Shown: positions 128 through 39,416 of the stretch, piece by piece | Position numbering within the stretch: position 1 is the stretch's first letter | Layout: each line of letters opens with the position of its first letter | IMG/VR virus record: IMGVR_UViG_3300028800_000036 | Coordinates: 1-39,416 of that record | Length of the DNA stretch: 39,416 bases | Reading direction: 5' to 3' (one strand) | Source: a virus | Position numbers and translations under genes: made by a program | The notes under the pieces: model-generated | What the model saw: the letters and a program-made list of their open reading frames with translations, nothing else | Database searches by the model: none | Told to the model about the DNA's origin: nothing

Positions 128-295
128 ACCCGTGTTAGTGACAGTGACATTGCCGGACGAACCGCCGCCTGAGATTCCGGTTCCAGCCGTGACTCCGGTT
201 ATAGTTCCGGAGCCGCCTCCCGCTTGGACAATAATGTTCCCGGCAAAAGCCGTGGAACCCGCGAGCATTAAAATGGCGAACAATATTTTTTTCAT
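1..295 (-). CDS. Secreted-type tail fibre/spike protein, N-terminal part (gene crosses the contig junction)
   Basis: This is the 5' part of a 284-codon gene that starts at ATG 293-295 and continues, after circular joining, at 39289 down to 38730. The start has a good Shine-Dalgarno site (AAGGAG) just after the stop of the upstream fibre gene (306-308). The N-terminus is a textbook Sec signal peptide: MKK, a hydrophobic core ILFAILMLAG, then an STAFA|G cleavage site. A Gly/Ser/Thr-rich low-complexity stretch with NVTVTN-like segments follows, as in fibre stems. The frame matches the right-hand part exactly. Fibre-type function is inferred from composition and position between two other fibre-like genes; no catalytic motif is seen. 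Confidence 0.85.
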   Translation of the reverse strand, partial: MKKILFAILMLAGSTAFAGNIIVQAGGGSGTITGVTAGTGISGGGSSGNVTVTNTGVLSVSSTSTGGTPITGAVQLLPGSNVTLTQSGQGITIASSGG

Positions 296-305
296 GTCAT
301 TCTCC

Positions 306-2054
306 TTAATTACAGTACCACGTCGAGTTTAACCGTTTAGCAAAAGCTCCACTTCCTGATCCAGCACACACGCAAGCCGCTGAAATAACACCGACACAAG
401 TGGCCGGAGTCGTTACAGTACAGTCGGGGCAATATTGAAATGTGCCATTGGGTGCAGGTCCTAGGGTCGAAAAATTCTGTCCATTAAATGCGGTTGTCGT
501 AACTGTCACTTGTCCTGTAATTGTCATGCTCGATACGATCTGAAGTCCACTAGCAAGAGCTTCTACGATTGATCCATTATTGTAGGTTTCCGTTGAAACA
601 TAGAATGTCCCCGAAGAAACATCTAAAGCCGTTCCTGACTGAAACACCATCGTCGAGAACCCAATATAAGTCATGGATGAAATGCCGTTGAAACTGACCG
701 AGCTGGCATCGACTGTTTCAAGGTTTGTGCCGCCGAAAGATCCCGCATTATTGAATTGCATCTGTGTGGAAACACCGCCAGGAGTACCGCCGCCGCCGCT
801 CCCAGTCCCGCCATCAACGATTGCGCCGTTGGTGCTACTAAACGTAGCGTAATGGCCTACGGTCACACTCGCACTCGATCCGACTAGTCCGTATTTATTG
901 CCGTCGGGAGGAATGAAGTACGGATACCCCGTAGCCGTGAGCGTTAGACCCCCTGCCGACAGAGCCGTTGCTGTGATGCTAGAGACCGTCATCGTTGTGA
1001 CGATAATTTGACTGGTCCCGAGAGTAATGAACGAAGTCCCGTTGATCGTATTGGTCGCAACGGCAGAATAATACCCGAAGTTGTTCTGGGTCGAGGCGAT
1101 GATCGAGCCGCCTGTTGAGCCACCGCCACCTCCACCTGGACATGCCGATATTGAAAGATTCCCAGATCCATCAGACTGCCAACAACCAGAAGCATCTGCC
1201 GATGGTAGATTCCAGGTTGTTCCACTCAAGGAAGTACCCGCCGGAGCGCGAAGACCAACATACTGTGAAGTTCCAACGCTTGTTCCTGCGAAAGCTAATA
1301 CGCCAGTCGTTGCGGCATCACTTGATGGCACTATGGCAAAGGGAACTCCGTTTATTTGCTTCATAACAAAGACTTGTCTTCCATTCGTCTGAGAAGCATA
1401 AGGGGAATAAAAAGTTAAGTTTGGCCCGCGAGTAAGAGAGACAACAAATCCAGGACCATTCAAGGCATTTATTCCCTCTGATCCGTTGTACCAGAACAAT
1501 GATCCCTGAGCATTTGTTCCAGATGTTGGTACAGCCAAATTGAAACTATTTACAGGGTCAATACTTTGTAAAGAGTTAGTTAACATTGACTGCGTAACCG
1601 TCATGCTCGAAATGGTGGCGGTGGACATGTTTATGGCTTCACCTGGAACGAATAAAGGAGAGTTTTGAATATAGTTCGATGATCCAGGGGCAAGTGATGT
1701 ACTTGTCACTACTGTGGACCAGAAGGGAGACGCAGAAGATCCAGCGGTCGTAAAAACTTGACCGGAAGTCCCTGGAGTAAGACCCGTCAAAGTGGTTGTT
1801 GAGCCAGAAAGCGCATAAAATGGCGCGGAATATTGAGGGGCCGCCAAAATCGTTCCGTTTGTTGATCCCCCGCCAGTTCCGCCACCGGACCCCGTATTAA
1901 CCGTACTATCTAAAATCTGCCAGTTTGTGTTCTGGTACTGACCCCAATTCGGAGAACCGACCGCCGGAAGGTAAAGGCCAAGGCGGTTGGTCTGTTGAAC
2001 CCCCCACCCTAAAGAAGATAAGCCCAGGAGGGCGATAGCTAATAATTTTTTCAT
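306..2054 (-). CDS. Tail fibre-like protein with N-terminal signal peptide
   Basis: A 582-residue protein. Residues 1-18 look like a signal peptide (MKKLLAIALLGLSSLGWG). Next comes a module typical of phage fibre N-termini (LGLYLPAVGSPNWGQYQNTN, then NWQILDS). The middle is long, Gly/Ser/Thr-rich and beta-prone, with MQFNNAGSFGG and repeated SSMT/VSS segments. The C-terminus is Cys-rich (CPDCTVTTPATC, then GAFAKRLNSTWYC), resembling small C-terminal domains of environmental phage fibres. The start ATG overlaps the stop of the upstream ejection-type gene (ATGA), so it belongs to the late operon. A receptor-binding role is inferred. The signal peptide is odd for a protein that would assemble on virions in the cytoplasm. 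Confidence 0.8.
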   Translation of the reverse strand: MKKLLAIALLGLSSLGWGVQQTNRLGLYLPAVGSPNWGQYQNTNWQILDSTVNTGSGGGTGGGSTNGTILAAPQYSAPFYALSGSTTTLTGLTPGTSGQVFTTAGSSASPFWSTVVTSTSLAPGSSNYIQNSPLFVPGEAINMSTATISSMTVTQSMLTNSLQSIDPVNSFNLAVPTSGTNAQGSLFWYNGSEGINALNGPGFVVSLTRGPNLTFYSPYASQTNGRQVFVMKQINGVPFAIVPSSDAATTGVLAFAGTSVGTSQYVGLRAPAGTSLSGTTWNLPSADASGCWQSDGSGNLSISACPGGGGGGSTGGSIIASTQNNFGYYSAVATNTINGTSFITLGTSQIIVTTMTVSSITATALSAGGLTLTATGYPYFIPPDGNKYGLVGSSASVTVGHYATFSSTNGAIVDGGTGSGGGGTPGGVSTQMQFNNAGSFGGTNLETVDASSVSFNGISSMTYIGFSTMVFQSGTALDVSSGTFYVSTETYNNGSIVEALASGLQIVSSMTITGQVTVTTTAFNGQNFSTLGPAPNGTFQYCPDCTVTTPATCVGVISAACVCAGSGSGAFAKRLNSTWYCN

Positions 2055-10229: not shown

Positions 10230-10481
10230 TTACCAGGCCAGGGTGATCGTGGTCCCTGAATATGTGGCCGTGAACCCCTGAGAAATGAGATCACGCATCA
10301 CGTTGTTCACGTCCTGCTGAGAATATCCCGATGCAGAAGCCGTACAGGTAAACAACTCGCCCGTTGCCACTACAGCCGCAATCGCCGCTATGACAACAGC
10401 CTGTAAAGCCGCTTCTGTTTTATACGTTCCTGCGCTTACCTCACGGACAGACTGAGCGTTTCCGAACACAAATGCTGACAT
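10230..10481 (-). CDS. Small tandem paralogue C (GYT-SGTT-W family)
   Basis: An 83-residue protein, third of three adjacent related genes. It has a basic or polar N-terminus, an Ala-rich amphipathic helix (AALQAVVIAAIAAVVATGEL) and the conserved ending GFTATYSGTTITLAW. The AAGGAG site lies 6-7 bases before ATG. The shared architecture (Ala-rich helix, short strand, xxxGY/FT-x-x-SGTT-I/L-T-W hairpin) suggests a small alpha/beta domain. In a structural operon this could be a capsid or tail decoration protein, but the role is not established. Confidence 0.75.
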   Translation of the reverse strand: MSAFVFGNAQSVREVSAGTYKTEAALQAVVIAAIAAVVATGELFTCTASASGYSQQDVNNVMRDLISQGFTATYSGTTITLAW

Positions 10482-10492
10482 GATTTATCTCC

Positions 10493-10753
10493 TTACCAAC
10501 TAATGGTGATAGTCGTGCCAGAATAGGACACGGTGTACCCAAGCCCTTCACAAAGAACCATTTGATTCTGAACCATCGAAGCGGTATATGCCGAAGCCGC
10601 TACTGTGGTCGTAAACAATCCAGACGCAATCGCCGCATTAACTGCGGTTGCAATCGCCGCATGAAGCGCGGTCTCTGTTGCCGACGCATAAGATCCTGCC
10701 AATGCCCGAGCCGCCGCCGCCGGTGCTATTTCTCCCCAAGAAACTGTTGCCAT
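10493..10753 (-). CDS. Small tandem paralogue B (GYT-SGTT-W family)
   Basis: An 86-residue protein, middle copy of the triplet. It has an Ala-rich helical region (ETALHAAIATAVNAAIASGL), a TTTVAASAYTASMV segment and the conserved C-terminus GYTVSYSGTTITISW. The start has a strong AAGGAG site 6 bases upstream. It is clearly related to both neighbours but strongly diverged in the first 25 residues, which hints that the N-termini contact different partners. A virion role is inferred from location. Confidence 0.75.
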   Translation of the reverse strand: MATVSWGEIAPAAAARALAGSYASATETALHAAIATAVNAAIASGLFTTTVAASAYTASMVQNQMVLCEGLGYTVSYSGTTITISW

Positions 10754-10767
10754 TTTAATTCTCCTTT

Positions 10768-11037
10768 TTACATTACCGACCAGTTGACGGTCAGAGTAGT
10801 TCCGCTAAGTGTTGCCGTGTACCCCATATTCACAAGACGCTCGATCATAATCTGGACAAGCGCGTTTGCATAAGCCGCCGTTGCAACAGTGATGGTCTGA
10901 AGACCAGCACACGCCGCATTTCCTATAGCGGCAGAAATGGCGTTCTGAAGCGCAAAGTCAGCGTTGCCAGGAGACAGCGAGACAAGGCGCACAAAAAAAG
11001 CTTGGTCTATAAATCCATCCGATTCCATCATAGGCAT
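10768..11037 (-). CDS. Small tandem paralogue A (GYT-SGTT-W family)
   Basis: An 89-residue protein, first copy of the triplet. It has a distinct N-terminus (ESDGFIDQAFFVRL), then the shared Ala-rich helix (FALQNAISAAIGNAACAGL), ITVATAAYANALVQ, and GYTATLSGTTLTVNW followed by SVM. The AAGGAG site lies 9 bases before ATG. Three independently translated relatives, each with its own ribosome site, suggest three related virion components or a dose-controlled decoration set. Confidence 0.75.
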   Translation of the reverse strand: MPMMESDGFIDQAFFVRLVSLSPGNADFALQNAISAAIGNAACAGLQTITVATAAYANALVQIMIERLVNMGYTATLSGTTLTVNWSVM

Positions 11038-12305: not shown

Positions 12306-13727
12306 CTATAACCCGGAATTCTTTGCATTCGGAATGATCTGAAGACCTAAACCGCCCTGCGTTGGAGGCGTATTAACGTTGAACCTGATCCATGAATACC
12401 CAGTCTGCCCAAGATCCACAACGCTTGTCGATGATGGGAAAACAGCCGTGAACGTCGAAACACCCTGGCCAGGATATTGCGTCCAGTTCACGCCATCATT
12501 ACTAGCCTGGAATATTCCTGTCGCTGTGCCAGTCTCCGGCAACGCCGTCAGAACAAACGAGTCAGCCGTTGTCTTATTCGTCGAAGAAGTCAACACAATG
12601 AACGTTCCCTTCTGAGCATTCGCCGAAGTCGTCGCAAGACCAAGAGCCGAAGGACTCACAGGAATAACGTAGTAGGTTGTTCCCCAGACTAGCCCACCGA
12701 TTGCCGTAGCTGAAGAGGTCGTATAAAGCACCTGATACCCGACCATTCCAGTCTGTGTGGTTGATCCGAAGGTGTTGGTCGCATTAATCACCGTTGCTGA
12801 TCCACCGACTAACGTATAGGCCGCGTTCGTCCCACCCCACATCTGGCCTTGTCCTGCTCCGTTTAGGCCAGTAACTGTGACCGTACTGCCACCAATAGTC
12901 AAAGCCGCTTGTGTGGTCGTATAAACAACGTAATTCGTGTTTGTTCCAACGCTCGTCGATGTAGTCACTACCACGCCGCAAGCATTCGCCAGACCACAAA
13001 CGACGGGAGCTGTTGCTATGACAATCGCGCTCAATGCCGTATTGGTATCAATAGCCGTAGCTATATTGTTCGCCGTGATCGCAGATGAAGTACCGACAGC
13101 GAATTGATTGCCTCCGCAGAGTTCAATCCCATTAATTGCGAAACAAGCCAGATCAGTCCCTCCTGTGAAGTTCAGAGAGTTGACCGTGATTGACGATGTA
13201 TTGCTCGTAAACGTCATTCGATTACCGAAACTTCCAGGTTGTGTCGCGGTGGAGAAAACAACACTTCCGGTTAGATTCGAAGTCGATGTAATTTGAGTAA
13301 ATAAAGCATTTAGTTGAGTAACAATATCAGCCGCCGTATCGCTCGTCACGTCAACGCGCCAATTACCATTGCACACATTCTGGCCCGCTGATCCGTTAAA
13401 AAACGTAATACAGGCTCCAGCCAGATTTGTGCTTAGGACTGTGAGAAAATCAGAAGCCGTCGCAGAGCTGATTCCGGTATTGTTCGCAACCTTTAATGTC
13501 CCGGTAGATTCAGAACCATCAGTAAACGTGACGTTAGAAGGGCTGGGGGTAGACCACGTCAATTGAAAACTGACGTTATCCGCCTGAATCTGGTTCATCG
13601 GAAGCGGATAAGACTTCGCATAAGTCAAACCAGACTCGTTGGCCAGGTATCCATTATATTTCACCGTTCCGGCCCATGCCGTAATAGGGGCAACAAGCAA
13701 CATCAGAACAGCGAGATATTTCTTCAC
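12306..13727 (-). CDS. Structural/decoration-like protein with signal peptide
   Basis: A 473-residue protein from GTG 13725-13727. I prefer this start because it follows the upstream stop by one base, has a GGGGA site 6 bases away, and gives a clean signal peptide (KKYLAVLMLLVAPITAWAG). A longer in-frame reading to 13814 lies inside the upstream gene and has no support. The mature part is beta-rich, Thr/Ser/Gly-rich, with modules alternating strands and short AINA/ATAI helices (about residues 75-270). These resemble the module in the preceding 179-residue gene and in the nozzle-like protein. The C-terminus (FQASNDGVNWTQYPGQG ... WIRFNV) looks like a sugar-binding-type jelly roll. Surface decoration or adhesion is inferred. 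Confidence 0.65.
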   Translation of the reverse strand: MKKYLAVLMLLVAPITAWAGTVKYNGYLANESGLTYAKSYPLPMNQIQADNVSFQLTWSTPSPSNVTFTDGSESTGTLKVANNTGISSATASDFLTVLSTNLAGACITFFNGSAGQNVCNGNWRVDVTSDTAADIVTQLNALFTQITSTSNLTGSVVFSTATQPGSFGNRMTFTSNTSSITVNSLNFTGGTDLACFAINGIELCGGNQFAVGTSSAITANNIATAIDTNTALSAIVIATAPVVCGLANACGVVVTTSTSVGTNTNYVVYTTTQAALTIGGSTVTVTGLNGAGQGQMWGGTNAAYTLVGGSATVINATNTFGSTTQTGMVGYQVLYTTSSATAIGGLVWGTTYYVIPVSPSALGLATTSANAQKGTFIVLTSSTNKTTADSFVLTALPETGTATGIFQASNDGVNWTQYPGQGVSTFTAVFPSSTSVVDLGQTGYSWIRFNVNTPPTQGGLGLQIIPNAKNSGL

Positions 13728-13728
13728 G

Positions 13729-14268
13729 TTAGATCCCCTTGGCGAGAGCCGTAACCGTCCCGTCAGTGCCGCCAGCCACAGCCGTAGACACAGAACCATG
13801 CGCCGAAATCGCAAGCGTCATTAGGTTCCCGATAGATCCTTGCTCTTTAGCTGTAATCGTTAAAAGAGCACCAGAAGAAGAAGCAAAAACAACGTTGGAA
13901 ACAATCGCCGTTGCCGACGCATTGATCGCTACCGCCGCATTAGCCGCCGCCGCCGTATCGCTCGCCCCAAGATTGAACTGGTTACCAGTCGCACCCGATG
14001 TTTTGGCCGTGAACACAGTCCCATTGATCGTAATGGTGTCATTGTTAGCGATGCTTGAGAACGTAATCACGCCAGCCGCCGCGACACCGTTAGCTTGACA
14101 CACAATGTTCCCAGACCGCGTGCCGATACCGATACTCTGAAAGAAATCGCCAATACGCCGAAAAGCGTTGGCGATTGCCACGTTCGTAAGTCCTGCGCCT
14201 AAAGGAATAGTGAGAGACCCGCCTGCTGTTTTTCCGTAGATTTTGAATGTCTGGATGGGTGATGCCAT
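13729..14268 (-). CDS. Capsid-adjacent decoration-like protein
   Basis: A 179-residue protein just downstream of the capsid gene. The N-terminus (SPIQTFKIYGKTAGGSLTIP) is beta-like. Residues about 70-165 hold the module NDTITINGTVFTAKTSG ... NQFNLGASDTAAAANAAVAI, a repeat-like domain seen in many phage structural proteins and present in modified form in two other genes here. The AGGAG site lies 9 bases before ATG. Position and size suit a head decoration or stabilisation protein. The role is inferred. Confidence 0.6.
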   Translation of the reverse strand: MASPIQTFKIYGKTAGGSLTIPLGAGLTNVAIANAFRRIGDFFQSIGIGTRSGNIVCQANGVAAAGVITFSSIANNDTITINGTVFTAKTSGATGNQFNLGASDTAAAANAAVAINASATAIVSNVVFASSSGALLTITAKEQGSIGNLMTLAISAHGSVSTAVAGGTDGTVTALAKGI

Positions 14269-32286: not shown

Positions 32287-32688
32287 TTAGATCAAAACGG
32301 GCTTATAGAATTGCGGTCCTTTCTTAGCATCGTCATCCCAAGCCTTCCCACCGAACGCACGTAGAGCCCAATAGACCGTATAGCGGGAAACATACCCTAC
32401 GCCAAACTGAGCCATCAACCGAAGAAGGCAAGCATCAGCCTCGGCGCGGGGGAATGTCTGCGTCGCATACAGCCAATCATGAACCACGTAACCAAGAGTA
32501 GCTGGCCCTATCGGAGGAATAATGTTCCAAGCGATGCGCGGGACTGATCCTACGTCGGTAATAAAATACTTTCGAGCCTTAATCGGCCCAAGAATGTCAT
32601 CCAGGACATCGAAATCCTGATCCAGCCACCATAGAAAAGTTCCTTCTATGGGGACCAGATGAGGATCGTCGATGATCTTGTCCGTCAT
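32287..32688 (-). CDS. DUF1353 phage protein
   Basis: A 133-residue protein. ARKYFITDVGSVPRIAWNII and VVHDWLYATQTFPRAEADAC carry the TD..S.P and HDWLY...R..AD signatures of DUF1353, common beside phage lysis genes. A hydrolase-like role has been suggested for the family but not shown here. ATGA-coupled to the upstream gene; last gene of the late operon. Confidence 0.85.
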   Translation of the reverse strand: MTDKIIDDPHLVPIEGTFLWWLDQDFDVLDDILGPIKARKYFITDVGSVPRIAWNIIPPIGPATLGYVVHDWLYATQTFPRAEADACLLRLMAQFGVGYVSRYTVYWALRAFGGKAWDDDAKKGPQFYKPVLI

Positions 32689-33119
32689 GCCGCTGGCGGA
32701 GGAGTTACCGCCGGGGTAACGACGGGAACCGTCGGAGCCGGAACGATTGTCGCTAGGATTGCCAGGTCAGAATTTAGATCGCCCAGCAATGCAGACGAAT
32801 CCGCTAGGAGCGCGGTGGGGTCGTTCTTGTCCGCAACAGCCTTCTGCAAATCCGCGATGTTCTTCTGGATGAGCGGAAGATACGTCGGCAATTTCGCCAG
32901 GAACGTATTAAGTTTAACGGCTTCTTCTTCTGCGAGCACTACGCCTTGTAGGAAGTTCATTTTAATCTCCTTTTCGTTATGTCTTCGTTCTAGTTTGTCT
33001 TCGAGTACGTCTTTTAAAACGCTGTGCTGAAACCAATAATAGCCCGCCGCGCCAATCGAACACAAATGGACGACGTAATGGACCACTTCTTTCAAATGCA
33101 GGACCACGCAGTTAAGCAT
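32685..33119 (-). CDS. Possible dual-start lysis-cassette protein (or fused pair)
   Basis: A 144-codon frame from ATG 33117-33119. Residues 1-53 contain a likely membrane segment (VVHYVVHLCSIGAAGYYWFQ). The rest, beginning MNFLQGVVLAEEEAVKLNTF, is a soluble helical protein with a Pro/Val tail. An internal ATG at 32958-32960 has a much stronger ribosome site (AAAAGGAG, 6 bases) than the first start. It may encode long and short forms, as in holin/antiholin dual starts, or be two fused small genes. Confidence 0.55.
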   Translation of the reverse strand: MLNCVVLHLKEVVHYVVHLCSIGAAGYYWFQHSVLKDVLEDKLERRHNEKEIKMNFLQGVVLAEEEAVKLNTFLAKLPTYLPLIQKNIADLQKAVADKNDPTALLADSSALLGDLNSDLAILATIVPAPTVPVVTPAVTPPPAA

Positions 33120-33513
33120 CGGCACTGTAATTATTCACGATGGTAATGGTTAATCCCTGCTGATCTTTGATGATGGTATAAAGCTCATTGAACGTCGACA
33201 CGGTATTGTCTATAGAATCGCCTTCTTGACCGTTTCCAACACCGATGCAACCTTCATAATTAGAAGGGTTATTGCCCCAATGTATCCTAATGCCAGCATC
33301 ACCACCAGCGGCGATATCACGAGTATCATCAATGATGTGAGGCATGGTTCTATTAAATCGTGGAGAGTAATCGAATCTGACATTGTAGGTTCCTGGGTTA
33401 ATGGCCTTAGCCAGATTTTCACATGTGAAGCAGGAAAAAAGACTCGTATCTATGGAGAGTTTACCGAAAATTCCGTCTGTCGTTTTCTTGGTTCGGATCA
33501 TTGTTAGTCTCAT
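33112..33513 (-). CDS. DUF5675 protein
   Basis: A 133-residue protein from ATG 33511-33513, which overlaps the upstream stop (ATGA). A longer frame to 33576 runs inside the neighbour. LTMIRTKKTTDGIFGKLSID, SCFTCENLAK, INPGTYNVRFDYSPRF, IRIHWGNNPSNYEGCIGVGN are DUF5675 hallmarks (IH.gN...d..GCI). The conserved His/Asp/Cys cluster recalls an L,D-transpeptidase-like peptidoglycan enzyme, so a cell-wall role is plausible. It lies in the lysis region. Confidence 0.85.
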   Translation of the reverse strand: MRLTMIRTKKTTDGIFGKLSIDTSLFSCFTCENLAKAINPGTYNVRFDYSPRFNRTMPHIIDDTRDIAAGGDAGIRIHWGNNPSNYEGCIGVGNGQEGDSIDNTVSTFNELYTIIKDQQGLTITIVNNYSADA

Positions 33514-33707
33514 AGCTTTTCCCCCTCCATAGATTCGCCGTGTCCGTCCCAGGTTGCTACCTGGTGGTATCCGCACCGTAAGCAGTCGAGCTTGATCTGT
33601 ACATTACCGTCCATGTCCTTTCCCCACGATTGCGCCCACATAAGCTCTGTTATTTTTTTATCGTGACACTTCTCGCATCGCCGTGGCGTCTTCCAGAGAT
33701 CAGCCAT
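33510..33707 (-). CDS. Small zinc-ribbon protein
   Basis: A 65-residue protein with CEKCHDKK and LDCLRCGYHQ, giving two CxxC knuckles about 30 residues apart. The start lies 8 bases inside the upstream gene, and the end couples to DUF5675 by ATGA. Its role among lysis-type genes is unknown. Confidence 0.7.
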   Translation of the reverse strand: MADLWKTPRRCEKCHDKKITELMWAQSWGKDMDGNVQIKLDCLRCGYHQVATWDGHGESMEGEKL

Positions 33708-33972
33708 GCCACGTGATATGAGACCAGAACGCTTTGACCGCTAAGGCCACGCTTCCCGTCGCAATCAACCCCGCCACCCACTTTCCTTTTGTGTAAGCCG
33801 GGGAAATCTCTCTTAGAATTTCTCCCTGCGCTTTAAGTTCAAGATCCGTAATACGTCTCCATTCATTGATAGCTCCAACATCCCTATCGTAGCGTTCAAT
33901 AAAATCATTAAATTTCTGCGACAATTGGGCTACCAAGATATCATCCACTCGTCTCTTTTCTTCGTCACTCAT
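33700..33972 (-). CDS. Small one-helix membrane protein, candidate holin
   Basis: A 90-residue protein. A charged helical N-terminus (EEKRRVDDILVAQLSQKFND, then FIERYDRD) precedes one transmembrane helix (WVAGLIATGSVALAVKAFW). This layout, plus position at the head of the lysis-type cassette after the spike, fits a holin or a small tail-anchored lysis protein. ATGA-coupled to the spike gene. The family is not certain. Confidence 0.55.
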   Translation of the reverse strand: MSDEEKRRVDDILVAQLSQKFNDFIERYDRDVGAINEWRRITDLELKAQGEILREISPAYTKGKWVAGLIATGSVALAVKAFWSHITWHG

Positions 33973-36900
33973 TGGGATCCAAACGTCGCATGGCCGCCAA
34001 AGGTCGCGCTCCCTCCAAACGTTACGCCACTAGTCCCGCCCTGGGAAGGCGTGACAAACTCAAGTGCCGGCCAGTCAGCGGCAAACCCCATTCCGAATAA
34101 TTGGCCGGGGTATTTTCCATTCGCCAACTGCACGTCCGTGAGATTTGATGCGCCGATATTATTTCCTACCGAGGCCGGATTGTCTGTTACGCCCGGCGCG
34201 TTCCATCCGGTCTTGCACCAGATCGAGCAATAGAGGCCGTCTGTGTATGCCTTGTTCGTCGGTGTCGCATTGTTCGTATACCAGACTCCGGCCGAGCTGA
34301 ACGCTTCCTGTAAAAGCTGTTCTTCTTCCACAATTAGAGACGAGTTCCATTGGACACTACATCCGGGTGTTTTCCATTGCATCGTTTGTGTCGCACCTAA
34401 AATAGTTCCTCCGGATTCACAGTTCCCATAAATGCGTCCGTAATTGATCGTGGTGTTTTCATTCTGAATACCGTAGTCGTGAACCCATTGCGCGGCCTGC
34501 GCGGAAAGAGTTGTATATCCTGTCCCAAGCGTGCTATCTAAAGCCCCGGCATATTTCATTCCAGTGTTTTTGATTCCGAGCATGAAGATTTGCTGACCAT
34601 ATCCAGAGAGATTGTCCAGAAATTGCCAATTTGCTCCGCTCGTGCCCACGAAGTTTCTGTCTAGGGTTAAAGACCCCGAATTGTTGTAGATGCAGAGATA
34701 ATTATTCTTGATGGCCGGATCGGTACTGCTCTGCCCGTAAGAAGCTACCGATGGAGCAGAATCATTTGTTAGTAAAGGCTGTGCGTCCATGTAGGAAAAT
34801 GAGCCGCTTGATCCAGGCCACAAAACAGAAATCCATCCATGCGTCGCGTCCTTTCGTAGAAACTGATAATAGCGACCGTTAATCATGATCGACCCGGCAT
34901 TGGTGGCAAAAGTACCGTTGGTCGCTGTCACAGCATCAGAGCTTGCAATCATGGTTACGGTCCCTGAATCGACCCCCTGACAGAGCGCAGACGTAAACCC
35001 TGATCCCGTTACATTCGGAGATCCGTTAGTCATTGTCACTGGTGTATTTTGGTTCCATAGGAACCCAGTAGCCCAGGAGTTTGTATCTACACCCCCGTTA
35101 CTTCGTTTGCAAGACACATCACGGGCATATAAAGTCCCGGCACCTGGACCAAACTGGTTTCTGAAATAAGTTTGCCACGGTATCCCGCCAGGAGCCGCAG
35201 AGCTTGAGGTGTCTGGGTCATAGAGAGCACCAAGGATACCCCAGGCACTCAGATAGCCTGAGTCTCTGGTATCGTAAGCATCGCAAGATGCCGCCGCAAC
35301 CCCCATTCCTCCATACCACCACGGACGAAGTTCACTGACAGCCGGAGTTCCGAACACGAGATAATGGGCGGTCGATCCAATAAATCCACCGCCGGGGAAA
35401 AGAATTGATCCGGAGACACTGATGCCTCCGGCCCAGTTCGGGTGCATGAGCCAATTCGCAGACGTTTCGTCCGCCATGGTTTTAGCGAGGGAAAGACCAG
35501 AGCGTTCGTATAGAGACATCCACGCTAAGTTTTCTCCATAGAAATTGATCCCGCCTAGACTGCTTTGGTTGGCATATCCTGCATAAAGGTTTACATCCGA
35601 AAAAGCATAGTTCTGAGCCGTAAAGGTAGATCCATCCAAGGATGGTATATCGCGTCCGCCAGTGATACTTGCCAATGAAAAACAATGGGTATCATCTTCG
35701 CATCCTGTCGGGAACGTAGCGACTTGTCCGGTTCCCGTGAATGGAGACGGTCGCGGCCACCTGTAAACGAGATACCGTTCAAAAGATGGAACGATGGCAT
35801 ACGTTAACCCTGTCGCCGTATCTGCGGTTGCCGGATAAACCCTGCTGAGAGTGAGAGATGTATCCGAATTAACGGCTGAGACATAAGCGACAAAAGTAAA
35901 TGTCGATGAGCTATGGGTTCCGGCAATACGTACAGCATCTCCCACGGAAACATTCGTTGACCACGCCGTGCCTATTCCTGTCATGGTCGCTGAATTGGCC
36001 GTCATCGTTGCCGTGCCGACATTGTATTTTAGGGGTCCCGCCGGGCCGCCCGCTCCCGCTGTTGAAAATACGGTCAAGAAATTAGTCCCTGATCCCTTAA
36101 ACAAGTACTGACCTACCACGGACCCGACCGGCCACGATTGCGCCGGTAAAATACTCGATTGCCCGGCGACACTTCCCGAAATTCCTCTTCCGTCATAACA
36201 GACGTTCAGCGTCAGCCCAGTGTTTGAGCAGATGCGTACCTCTTCGTAGGGGCCGTTATACCCGCCTGTCCACACAAATACGCGAGTCGGGAAACTCGAA
36301 AGATCTATGAGGGCCGCCGCCGTGGATGCGACAATAATCGTACTCGAAGATGCGCTGATCCCGGTTGTCAGCGTTGTTCCTACCGTTCCTATGGCATTGC
36401 CTGTCCCGTTAAAGGTGTAGCTTATGGTCCCGGCTTGGTTGTGAACGAAATCGGGGTCAGCGAAAGTGTAGGTGCTGTAAACAGTTCGCGTGGAATTGTA
36501 GACCCCGTTGCGGATGATCATAGCGGCCAGATGCCGTTCGTCCTGAAATCCGTAAGGGTTTCTGCCAAAGCAAATAGTGGGTCCGAATATCTGCGTAAAA
36601 TTCGTATCCCCTGGAGTCAGAACACCATTGGAATCACAGGATATCGCGCCGATGGTTTGTGAGGCGACACCTATATTCCCCGCGCCATCATGAGCCGTAA
36701 CCTGGATAACGTACGTGCCGGAGCTGACATTAGTAACAGTCGTCGTTGTGCCATGAACGTTCCCGAACGAGAGCGTGGAAGGTCCTGATAGTTCCAGCCA
36801 GTCGCAACTCGCAAGACCACTCACCGTATTTGAAGATGCGGTGCAGTCCAGATAGTTCGGCCAATGGCCGCTGGTGTCCCAAGACAAGCCGTACTGAGGA

Positions 36901-38723
36901 TAGTTCTTGATCCACACGCGATTGTTCACGAGGTTCGCGGCCAGGTCTGAATAGATTACCGCGCTGACGGTGTTGGTGCTCGCTGGAAGGAAAGAAACAC
37001 CCCAGGCATAATAGCCTTCGGAGTTGGATGAAAACAGCGCGTTTTCTGTCGTTGTCGAAGCAACAGGATATGAATCAATGCTGACCGTGAATGGCCGGGA
37101 CGTATCCGCTGATCTTAATTGCCATCCTTGGAGGCCACCCGTTGGAGCACCTGAACTGAATCCGGCATTGAGGTTGCCGGGAAGTGTAGGGAAAAGGCTT
37201 GACGTGGAATAGGGTTCAAGAAGCGTCGGGCCGGATACGCCTGTTTTTTCCACCCAGTTATAGAGTGCTCCAACACCGCTGTAAATGGAGGAATCCGAAG
37301 CCAAGAAAGCGCTGTCGTTCGGGGCGTTTAGATTGATGGTGTCAGTAGATACCGTTGTTGCCGCCTTAGCGTACCAAAGACCTACTGGCGCAACAGCATA
37401 GTCGCCAGGACCCGAAGACCCTAGTCCTATTAATGTCCAGGTATCCCCTGCCACATTTGACACCGTATTAACCGGGAGCGTATTAACATCCCAGAAATTA
37501 AATATAGATGATGCAATATGTGAAGCGGCTCCGCCGCAGGGTAAAAGCGTTCCACCGCCAATAACGACTTCGGCATCCGGATAATCGTAAACACCTACGC
37601 AAAGCTTTCCCGCAACACCGCGCTGATCGACAGTCATTACATAATAGGTCGTCATGTAGCTGAGTGAATCGGTTCCGATAATCGTAATGGTCGAAGTCGG
37701 AACCAAGAGAGAATTGATCCCGCCAGGAACTTCGGCAGGAATGGCTGGACCGGTATTAATGAGGGTAGGGGTATTGTAGTCGGTTGAGCGAGTCAGCACA
37801 TAGGGAACGCTTCCGGTCCCCAAAGTGGTTTCTTTATAAACGCCATTCTGGAACGCCGAAGCCTGATTGTTCACGACGATTCGATCATTTACAAGAACGC
37901 TATAGCCATTAATGACCAAAGCCCCATTACTGGTAGCTGTAAGTGTCGCTCCGACCCCCGCCGCGCCATTGTTATAACTTGGTGAATTAGGAAGAACTGA
38001 TCCAGTTTCCTGTTGAGCAAAACCGGATGTAGGAGTCATTGTCGTTACGTGGATCTTCTCAGTAGCGCGGGAAGAATAGGAACACCCATCTATAACACAC
38101 CTGTCCGATATAGTGGCGTAAAATGGCGGTGTCGGGTATAGACCAATATAGCTCGGGTTTACTTGAATTTGTGTTTGACCTGACGTGATATCGTTGGGCA
38201 GAAGCCCCTGTGGTTGTATGGGGAAATTCCCAAAGGCGTAAGCAAACATGACGCTACCAGACGAATGACCTGCTGAATAGGTCATGCTGTTATTCCCTGA
38301 GCTTTCCACATCAGCCGCAGAAGCTTCGCAGTAAATATTTCCGCCTACTAGCGTGTGATTACAGACGGGCGTGACATGGAAGACGGTGAATGTCGTGGTT
38401 GAGGATACGCCTACGGCTCCCACTGAATCTGTAGCACGTGCGCGGATTGTGTGAGATCCAACCGTGAGAAATCTAGCATCTATCGTCAGATTCCAGTTCG
38501 AGGTTCCAGAGGCGGTCGAATAGAAAACGCTATCAATGTCTATATCGACATTGGTAATAGAGCCGCCCGTACTAGAGGCAGTTCCTAATCCTCCAGGGTT
38601 CTGATAAATACCTCCGACATTTTCCCCGGCTGTAGGATAAGTCAATACGAGAGAGACTGACGCTAAGGCAGTCGCCGCTGTGGTTGCAAGGAATGCAAGG
38701 GCGATGAGTATGCGATGACGCAC
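33969..38723 (-). CDS. Giant spike/adhesin-like protein with signal peptide
   Basis: A 1584-residue protein from GTG 38721-38723. Residues 1-22 form a signal peptide (RHRILIALAFLATTAATALA|S). Residues about 24-116 and about 640-690 look like bacterial Ig-like domains (NWNLTIDARFLTVGSHTIRA; SGTYVIQVTAHDGAGNIG). The long middle and C-terminal parts are beta-rich with many aromatic and Cys residues, and the C-terminus repeats TFGG (VTFGGSATFGGHATFGSQ). It is the largest gene in the genome and follows two other fibre-like genes, so it is probably a host-surface-binding or depolymerising spike. No catalytic triad is recognised. Weak ribosome site. Confidence 0.75.
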   Translation of the reverse strand: MRHRILIALAFLATTAATALASVSLVLTYPTAGENVGGIYQNPGGLGTASSTGGSITNVDIDIDSVFYSTASGTSNWNLTIDARFLTVGSHTIRARATDSVGAVGVSSTTTFTVFHVTPVCNHTLVGGNIYCEASAADVESSGNNSMTYSAGHSSGSVMFAYAFGNFPIQPQGLLPNDITSGQTQIQVNPSYIGLYPTPPFYATISDRCVIDGCSYSSRATEKIHVTTMTPTSGFAQQETGSVLPNSPSYNNGAAGVGATLTATSNGALVINGYSVLVNDRIVVNNQASAFQNGVYKETTLGTGSVPYVLTRSTDYNTPTLINTGPAIPAEVPGGINSLLVPTSTITIIGTDSLSYMTTYYVMTVDQRGVAGKLCVGVYDYPDAEVVIGGGTLLPCGGAASHIASSIFNFWDVNTLPVNTVSNVAGDTWTLIGLGSSGPGDYAVAPVGLWYAKAATTVSTDTINLNAPNDSAFLASDSSIYSGVGALYNWVEKTGVSGPTLLEPYSTSSLFPTLPGNLNAGFSSGAPTGGLQGWQLRSADTSRPFTVSIDSYPVASTTTENALFSSNSEGYYAWGVSFLPASTNTVSAVIYSDLAANLVNNRVWIKNYPQYGLSWDTSGHWPNYLDCTASSNTVSGLASCDWLELSGPSTLSFGNVHGTTTTVTNVSSGTYVIQVTAHDGAGNIGVASQTIGAISCDSNGVLTPGDTNFTQIFGPTICFGRNPYGFQDERHLAAMIIRNGVYNSTRTVYSTYTFADPDFVHNQAGTISYTFNGTGNAIGTVGTTLTTGISASSSTIIVASTAAALIDLSSFPTRVFVWTGGYNGPYEEVRICSNTGLTLNVCYDGRGISGSVAGQSSILPAQSWPVGSVVGQYLFKGSGTNFLTVFSTAGAGGPAGPLKYNVGTATMTANSATMTGIGTAWSTNVSVGDAVRIAGTHSSSTFTFVAYVSAVNSDTSLTLSRVYPATADTATGLTYAIVPSFERYLVYRWPRPSPFTGTGQVATFPTGCEDDTHCFSLASITGGRDIPSLDGSTFTAQNYAFSDVNLYAGYANQSSLGGINFYGENLAWMSLYERSGLSLAKTMADETSANWLMHPNWAGGISVSGSILFPGGGFIGSTAHYLVFGTPAVSELRPWWYGGMGVAAASCDAYDTRDSGYLSAWGILGALYDPDTSSSAAPGGIPWQTYFRNQFGPGAGTLYARDVSCKRSNGGVDTNSWATGFLWNQNTPVTMTNGSPNVTGSGFTSALCQGVDSGTVTMIASSDAVTATNGTFATNAGSIMINGRYYQFLRKDATHGWISVLWPGSSGSFSYMDAQPLLTNDSAPSVASYGQSSTDPAIKNNYLCIYNNSGSLTLDRNFVGTSGANWQFLDNLSGYGQQIFMLGIKNTGMKYAGALDSTLGTGYTTLSAQAAQWVHDYGIQNENTTINYGRIYGNCESGGTILGATQTMQWKTPGCSVQWNSSLIVEEEQLLQEAFSSAGVWYTNNATPTNKAYTDGLYCSIWCKTGWNAPGVTDNPASVGNNIGASNLTDVQLANGKYPGQLFGMGFAADWPALEFVTPSQGGTSGVTFGGSATFGGHATFGSQ

Positions 38724-38729
38724 AACGGA

Positions 38730-39416
38730 TTAGTTCAGGCCACCAGCCCAAATCCAGATATTATTTAGCCCCGGTTCTGTTCGTGATCCGAAAGCAGATG
38801 GCATAACAATCGCACCGCCAGACCCTGTTGTTGAATTATTCCCTGCGATAAACAGGTTGTATGTCGAAGCGGTGCTATTTTGATCCTGTGCGAAGACTTC
38901 ATAATCGTAAGGTCCATGGACATAGAGAGCAAACGTACTAGAGCTTTGCGCGACGCACTCATAATATTTCGTTCCAGTCGTTAACGTTAGAGGTGCCATT
39001 GTTGCGGTATAAGGCCCTGTCGTTGGAACCGACAAAGAGATGGTCTGTCGAAGTAAGTTCCCGGAAGCATCGTAGAATCCAAAGGCTATTTGACTGGCGG
39101 AAAACTCTGTGAAAAAGCTCACGCTACTAATTGAGATGGAAGCCGAACCAGGAACGCCGCCCGTGAATCCTTCACAATGAACTGCGGCTGACGATAGATT
39201 GTGAACTTGCCCCGCGCTTGAATCCATCGTACAGGGTGATAATTCGGACGGACAAAATAGACGCCCATCGCTGATCGCCGTACCACCGCCACCGCCCGAT
39301 GAAGCGATAGTGATTCCCTGTCCAGACTGAGTGAGAGTGACGTTAGAACCAGGCAATAATTGCACTGCGCCAGTGATCGGAGTCCCGCCAGTAGAAGTGC
39401 TGGAAACAGAAAGGAC
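38730..39416 (-). CDS. Secreted-type tail fibre/spike protein, C-terminal part (continues at 1-295)
   Basis: The main part of the 284-residue protein; its signal peptide lies at 239-295 on the other side of the contig junction. The sequence here reads LLPGSNVTLTQSGQGITIAS, a Gly run, then a beta-rich globular domain with Cys (LFCPSELSPCTMD; VHCEGFTGG; KYYECVAQSSSTFALYVHGP) and ends NNIWIWAGGLN. Frame and sequence agree exactly with the left-hand copy in the 127-bp overlap. The GTG within the repeat at 39365 is internal, not the true start. Fibre or adhesin role inferred. Confidence 0.85.
   Translation of the reverse strand, partial: VLSVSSTSTGGTPITGAVQLLPGSNVTLTQSGQGITIASSGGGGGTAISDGRLFCPSELSPCTMDSSAGQVHNLSSAAVHCEGFTGGVPGSASISISSVSFFTEFSASQIAFGFYDASGNLLRQTISLSVPTTGPYTATMAPLTLTTGTKYYECVAQSSSTFALYVHGPYDYEVFAQDQNSTASTYNLFIAGNNSTTGSGGAIVMPSAFGSRTEPGLNNIWIWAGGLN
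39290..39416. repeat. 127-bp terminal repeat, right copy
   Basis: Identical to 1-127; see the left copy. Confidence 0.95.

Follow-up and report, generated by a model that had tools for sequence, protein, structure and literature searches.

Predicted export signals on cysteine-rich fibre-like proteins of a short-tailed phage and of unrelated tailed phages

Closest described systems and the genome analysed

In the textbook view, assembly of tailed phages is cytoplasmic and ends with lysis, and the characterised tailed-phage fibres are assembled in the cytoplasm. The closest described counterparts of the proteins reported here are tailed-phage fibres and spikes of the Collar-domain, pectate-lyase-type and adaptor-module kinds, such as Pam5 gp16 and the fibres of Melnitz and S-CAM9. 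Likenesses include shared domains, a late-operon position and a modular N terminus followed by a receptor-binding-like C terminus. In contrast to those proteins, an export signal is predicted to precede the module here, and paired cysteines abound in the putatively exported versions, whereas most homologues lacking a signal peptide contain few cysteines. A Sec signal peptide and a gene among tail genes are also features of lambda Lom and of comparable envelope proteins that phages encode and export; however, Lom forms a barrel in the outer membrane and is no fibre, while the bodies of the proteins described here are modules of fibre or spike type. Filamentous-phage coat proteins (e.g., pIII) have a signal peptide and disulphides and are virion proteins completed outside the cytoplasm. 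The likeness to pIII lies in these three respects, and pIII belongs to another virus realm with another mode of assembly. In the open-access literature, where absence is not proof, we came across no account of tail fibres bearing signal peptides. The parts of the proteins are of known kinds; their combination, as read from the sequences, appears to be new.

The DNA analysed (the window) is a virus record of IMG/VR, 39,416 bp long. An exact 127-bp direct repeat is present at both ends; because the ends overlap by this repeat, the map of the window is circular, with a unit of 39,289 bp. Terminal repeats of exactly 127 bp occur in four contigs (the window, G002, G091, and G092), which points to k-mer overlaps left by the assembler on circular maps and not to genuine terminal repeats. 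The gene order is of the short-tailed phage type, with roles partly inferred from that order: terminase, portal, scaffold, capsid, a 179-aa protein, a 473-aa protein and a small acidic protein, followed by tail genes, cysteine-free internal-type proteins, proteins of 582, 284, and 1,584 aa, and a lysis-like module. The last three protein genes are placed after the internal virion proteins and before the lysis genes, with DUF5675/DUF1353 downstream, and this fibre-gene position is also seen in G085 and G091. The DUF5675 and DUF1353 genes (32287 to 33576) adjoin the spike gene and resemble a lysis module. Elsewhere, three tandem small proteins (83, 86, and 89 aa; 10230 to 11037), apparently paralogous, are flanked by two tail genes. 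Outside IMG/VR, the distant kin of the phage are limited to a Silvanigrella phage and a single MAG phage, and a class-wide genome search retrieved no further kin beyond these two.

Four window proteins with predicted signal peptides

The original prediction assigned Sec signal peptides to four proteins of the window and considered chance an unlikely cause. The four open reading frames and their N termini are as it placed them. To score signal peptides, we used a home-made scorer based on n-, h-, and c-regions and the -3/-1 rule (cutoff, 7.5), calibrated on Escherichia coli K-12 proteins (25 secreted, 12 inner-membrane, and 48 cytosolic) and on 63 proteins of T7, lambda, and P22. At this cutoff, the scorer found most of the 25 secreted proteins, none of the 48 cytosolic proteins and a few of the 12 inner-membrane proteins, and the only one of the 63 phage proteins flagged was lambda Lom, which is genuinely exported. 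All four window proteins scored above the cutoff (10.6 for 284 aa, 7.9 for 582 aa, 10.8 for 473 aa, and 10.6 for 1,584 aa), compared with 10.3 for OmpA and 10.9 for OmpF on the same scorer, which bears out the predicted signals. Shuffled N termini reached the real score in 2, 183, 1, and 1 of 20,000 cases, respectively. Chance does not account for four such signals. Each protein has a tripartite Sec signal with a -3/-1 site by the scorer. Three of the signals are textbook examples, as good as that of OmpA, and that of the 582-aa protein is the weakest. None of the four has a cysteine at position +1, and thus they are not lipoproteins. Shine-Dalgarno-like sequences (AAGGAG, GAGGG, and AAGGGG) lie upstream of three of the starts, while no clear one was found upstream of the GTG start of the 1,584-aa protein.

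The 1,584-aa fibre/spike-like protein is encoded on the minus strand (33969 to 38723), as are the other three. Its predicted signal peptide (38661 to 38723, minus strand) reads VRHRILIALAFLATTAATALA, with cleavage before SVS. The protein contains weak Big_13/PKD Ig-like domains, a tail-fibre domain at approximately residues 245 to 345 (37689 to 37991, minus strand) and a large uncharacterised C-terminal part. It matched PF22352 (PKD) at the cutoff and the tail fibre family phrog_1980. The one family match with a link to outer-membrane proteins such as Lom, that of OmpL47 to the Ig-like part, fell below the cutoff, and the other domains are of fibre type. The fibre domain is recognisable and is common to many phage fibres: it matched 9efk "orf22," present as 18 chains in a solved assembly, with an E value of 2e-18, and at a loose E limit of 10 it retrieved 49 phage records, the better half of which are mostly annotated as tail fibre or virion protein. 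Direct homologue scans retrieved no viral relatives of the 1,584-aa, 473-aa, and 472-aa proteins.

The 582-aa fibre-like protein (306 to 2054, minus strand) has a cysteine-rich C terminus; its predicted signal peptide (2001 to 2054, minus strand) is MKKLLAIALLGLSSLGWG, with cleavage before VQQ. The protein contains an adaptor-like GLYLPAVGSPNWG motif, a likeness at the motif level only, and adaptor homology was not significant when tested. The gene of the 284-aa fibre-like protein spans the circular junction, with the N-terminal part at 2 to 295 and the C-terminal part at 38730 to 39416 (both minus strand; the latter continues at 1 to 295). Its predicted signal peptide (242 to 295, minus strand), behind the AAGGAG sequence, is MKKILFAILMLAGSTAFA, with cleavage before GNI. 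No significant homologues of the 284- and 582-aa proteins were found in phage records or the PDB. The cysteine-rich C-terminal ends of two signal-bearing proteins from related phages are alike, namely, window positions 306 to 470 (YCPDCTVTTPATC) and L004:5668-6030 (VWCANCVAANIC).

The 473-aa late-operon protein (12306 to 13727, minus strand; GTG start at 13727) is encoded between the capsid gene and the small acidic/tail genes. Its predicted signal peptide (13671 to 13727, minus strand) is VKKYLAVLMLLVAPITAWA, with cleavage before GTV. A survey of homologues, as proposed in the original prediction, is the right test of the signal. In close relatives, whose capsids are 81 to 87% identical to that of the window, the protein occupies the same place and has a signal peptide of differing letters (L001, L002, and L003), such that the signal is kept in four diverged members of the family. 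In a wider group, defined through kinship of an 858-aa hub-like protein, the gene immediately preceding that of the small acidic protein encodes a homologue of the 473-aa core with no signal peptide (L019, L020, and L027); the homology was established for the C-terminal part by profile comparison (E value of 2e-6) and for the start of the core by alignment. A signal present in close relatives and missing from distant syntenic homologues indicates that a structural-operon protein gained or lost an export tag. Other signal-bearing, cysteine-rich inserts in the wider group are proteins of 133 and 386 aa in L018 and one of 594 aa with a C1q domain in L019. By eye, the adjacent 179-aa protein (13729 to 14268) and the insert of the 473-aa protein resemble versions of one module; the former also matched phage sheath domain II (PF17481) weakly, below the cutoff. 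Structure prediction was of low confidence, with a mean pLDDT of 37 for the 473-aa family and 29 for the collar fibre of L088/L114.

Signal-bearing fibres and cysteine patterns across phages

Viral contigs were scanned with a three-sequence alignment of the fibre domain, which gave 334 relatives, of which 80 were kept. Among the 76 fibre-domain proteins with a complete start, nine have a predicted signal peptide (L046, L047, L057, L058, L073, L088, L091, L108, and L114); flagged signals in L079 and L082 were rejected as internal-start artefacts. Judged from these predictions, the phenomenon is much wider than the window genome. The nine proteins contain 1.14 to 1.89% cysteine, compared with a median of 0.18% in the other 67, whose maximum is 1.07%, with no overlap (P = 6e-7). 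The mature forms of the window proteins contain 4 (284 aa), 8 (582 aa), 6 (473 aa), and 22 (1,584 aa) cysteines and those of the nine others 8, 8, 44, 6, 16, 10, 10, 8, and 28, i.e., an even number in 13/13. Successive cysteine pairs (1-2, 3-4, and so on) are closer than under random placement in 11 of the 13 (P < 0.02), and gaps are shorter within than between pairs in 12, the exception being the 284-aa protein, whose count is even and whose pairing is not significant. Across whole genomes, even counts were found in 25/28 signal-bearing proteins (≥180 aa and ≥2 cysteines; P = 1.4e-5) and in 74/147 proteins without a signal (≥4 cysteines). The signal hit of one of the three odd-numbered exceptions, the L003 terminase, is an internal-start artefact. 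These P values are only a guide, as the cysteine tests were devised after the data had been seen and some of the proteins are kin (L057/L058 and L091/L108). Disulphides normally form outside the cytoplasm. The enriched, even, and closely paired cysteines therefore form the strongest argument for use of the signals, and this pattern is what would be expected if the ectodomains were suited to an oxidising compartment.

An all-against-all blastp comparison divides the structural genes of the phages concerned into at least five unrelated sets (the window with G002/G003/G006/G007; G085; G087; G088 with G089; and G090 with G091), and what is common across these sets is mainly the fibre domain. G092 was grouped with G091 mainly through replication genes. 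Tandem arrays of signal-bearing, cysteine-rich proteins occupy the window's fibre position in G087 (four proteins), G090 (at least three), G091 (four to five), and G092 (three to four). In a tree of the domain, the putatively exported fibres cluster, with 3 label changes versus 9.5 in shuffles, although the columns behind the tree are few and near-copies favour clustering. Fibres that cluster in the domain tree while being spread over unrelated phages fit exportable fibre modules that move between phages.

Modules of known fibres lie directly behind several of the signals. In G085, G088, and G089, the signal peptide directly precedes a module of the kind that opens fibres lacking a signal (Pam5 gp16 and the ctfPj964 colanidase). 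The G085 fibre consists of a signal peptide, an ILPPAKTTF... module, a Phage Tail Collar domain (PF07484; E value of 4e-8), the fibre domain and a spike-like end. A signal-bearing G088 protein matched the phrog_8763 tail protein (E value of 4e-32) and is 33% identical over 239 aligned columns to Pam5 gp16, whose annotation as a tail fibre is based on its sequence and on a comparison with Pam1 (PMC9382816). The alignment begins at residue 8 of the Pam5 protein and residue 32 of the G088 protein, just past the G088 signal. Four cysteines in two pairs are common to the G088 protein and its G089 homologue and absent from Pam5 gp16, which has cysteines at 147 and 187. G088 also encodes two adjacent pectate-lyase-type spikes (reading frames of ∼1,048 and 846 aa; G088:20919-26608, equivalent to L131:919-6608 on the contig of L088). 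The N-terminal signals of both are of the twin-arginine-like (Tat) kind, which hints at a second route of export.

Proposed export, alternative explanations, and implications

We propose, with about an even chance of being right, that the fibres are exported, acquire disulphides and join the particle either at lysis or later. The four window proteins would be made late in infection and sent over the inner membrane by their signal peptides, which signal peptidase would cleave. In the oxidising envelope compartment, the fibres would fold and their paired cysteines would form disulphides. Once the lysis genes had opened the cell, the fibres would meet particles assembled in the cytoplasm and would attach to them by their N-terminal regions, yielding disulphide-hardened, receptor-binding fibres. 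The original prediction, which named assembly or attachment outside the cytoplasm among its options, had regarded export as self-defeating for a virion protein; this does not hold in general, as T4 tail fibres and P22 tailspikes can attach to otherwise complete particles in lysates. Export is well supported by the sequence comparisons. We infer incorporation into virions from two observations. In the window, G091, and G092, no late-region fibre candidates were seen other than the signal-bearing proteins, and in G085, G088, and G089, the signal is followed at once by a retained fibre-start module. The retained adaptors might be remnants, and the same cysteine pattern would be seen in a fibre that acts only away from the particle. 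Probably, then, the host-recognition part is folded outside the cytoplasm and joined to the particle late.

The main rival to virion use is that the proteins are exported and disulphide bonded but never reach the particle, working instead on or around the infected cell with borrowed fibre domains. Lambda Lom offers a precedent: it is a membrane protein that is exported, its gene lies between tail genes (PMC12309495), and it was the sole match among our control phage proteins. Adhesin-like domains (Ig-like, PKD, and C1q) and tandem arrays that look larger than one short tail needs point the same way. Against this, several genomes are without any other fibre candidate, and the signal peptide is followed by modules for fibre attachment and by a Phage Tail Collar domain. 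We consider off-particle function, which might consist in receptor masking, exclusion of other phages, degradation of matrix, or keeping progeny off debris, possible but rather unlikely.

A different objection is that the signal-like segments are not used at the relevant stage, fast-folding or chaperoned fibres staying in the cytoplasm and being assembled with the segment intact. This would agree with the cytoplasmic assembly of characterised tailed-phage fibres and with G003 (L019), where fibre-like genes with and without a signal lie side by side. It is nonetheless improbable, given the even, paired cysteines of the signal-bearing versions, the retention of the signal while the sequence of the 473-aa family diverges and the different export route indicated for the two G088 spikes. 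Still less credible is the proposal that the hydrophobic segments are anchors (in the original prediction, virion anchors) that hold the fibre to a membrane or to the tail hub of the particle. Such segments do open all four proteins, but their h-regions are short, their -3/-1 sites are standard, their scores resemble those of OmpA and OmpF, and the remaining parts have the even, closely paired cysteines expected of disulphide-bonded ectodomains. Equally remote is the idea that the proteins were captured from secreted bacterial adhesins, their signals kept with no export function for the phage, or that a gene start is an artefact. The Ig-like and PKD domains and the 1,584-aa start with no Shine-Dalgarno sequence would suit this idea, yet the signal is retained across four diverged phages, the fibre domain is of phage type, and the signal-bearing fibres cluster in the domain tree while sitting in unrelated phages.

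Returning to fibres that are exported and then attached, we suggest tentatively, at somewhat below an even chance, that several unrelated tailed phages complete their virions outside the cytoplasm, with fibres that pass through Sec (or Tat), become disulphide bonded and snap on during or after lysis, and with modules that circulate among them. If this is true, the host-recognition part of such phages follows bacterial secretion and oxidative-folding pathways, and the cysteine-rich fibres of uncultured phages are explained. Study of these receptor-binding proteins would then need a periplasmic or oxidising expression system. The combination of a signal peptide, a fibre domain and even, paired cysteines provides a simple genome signature by which putatively exported fibres may be found.
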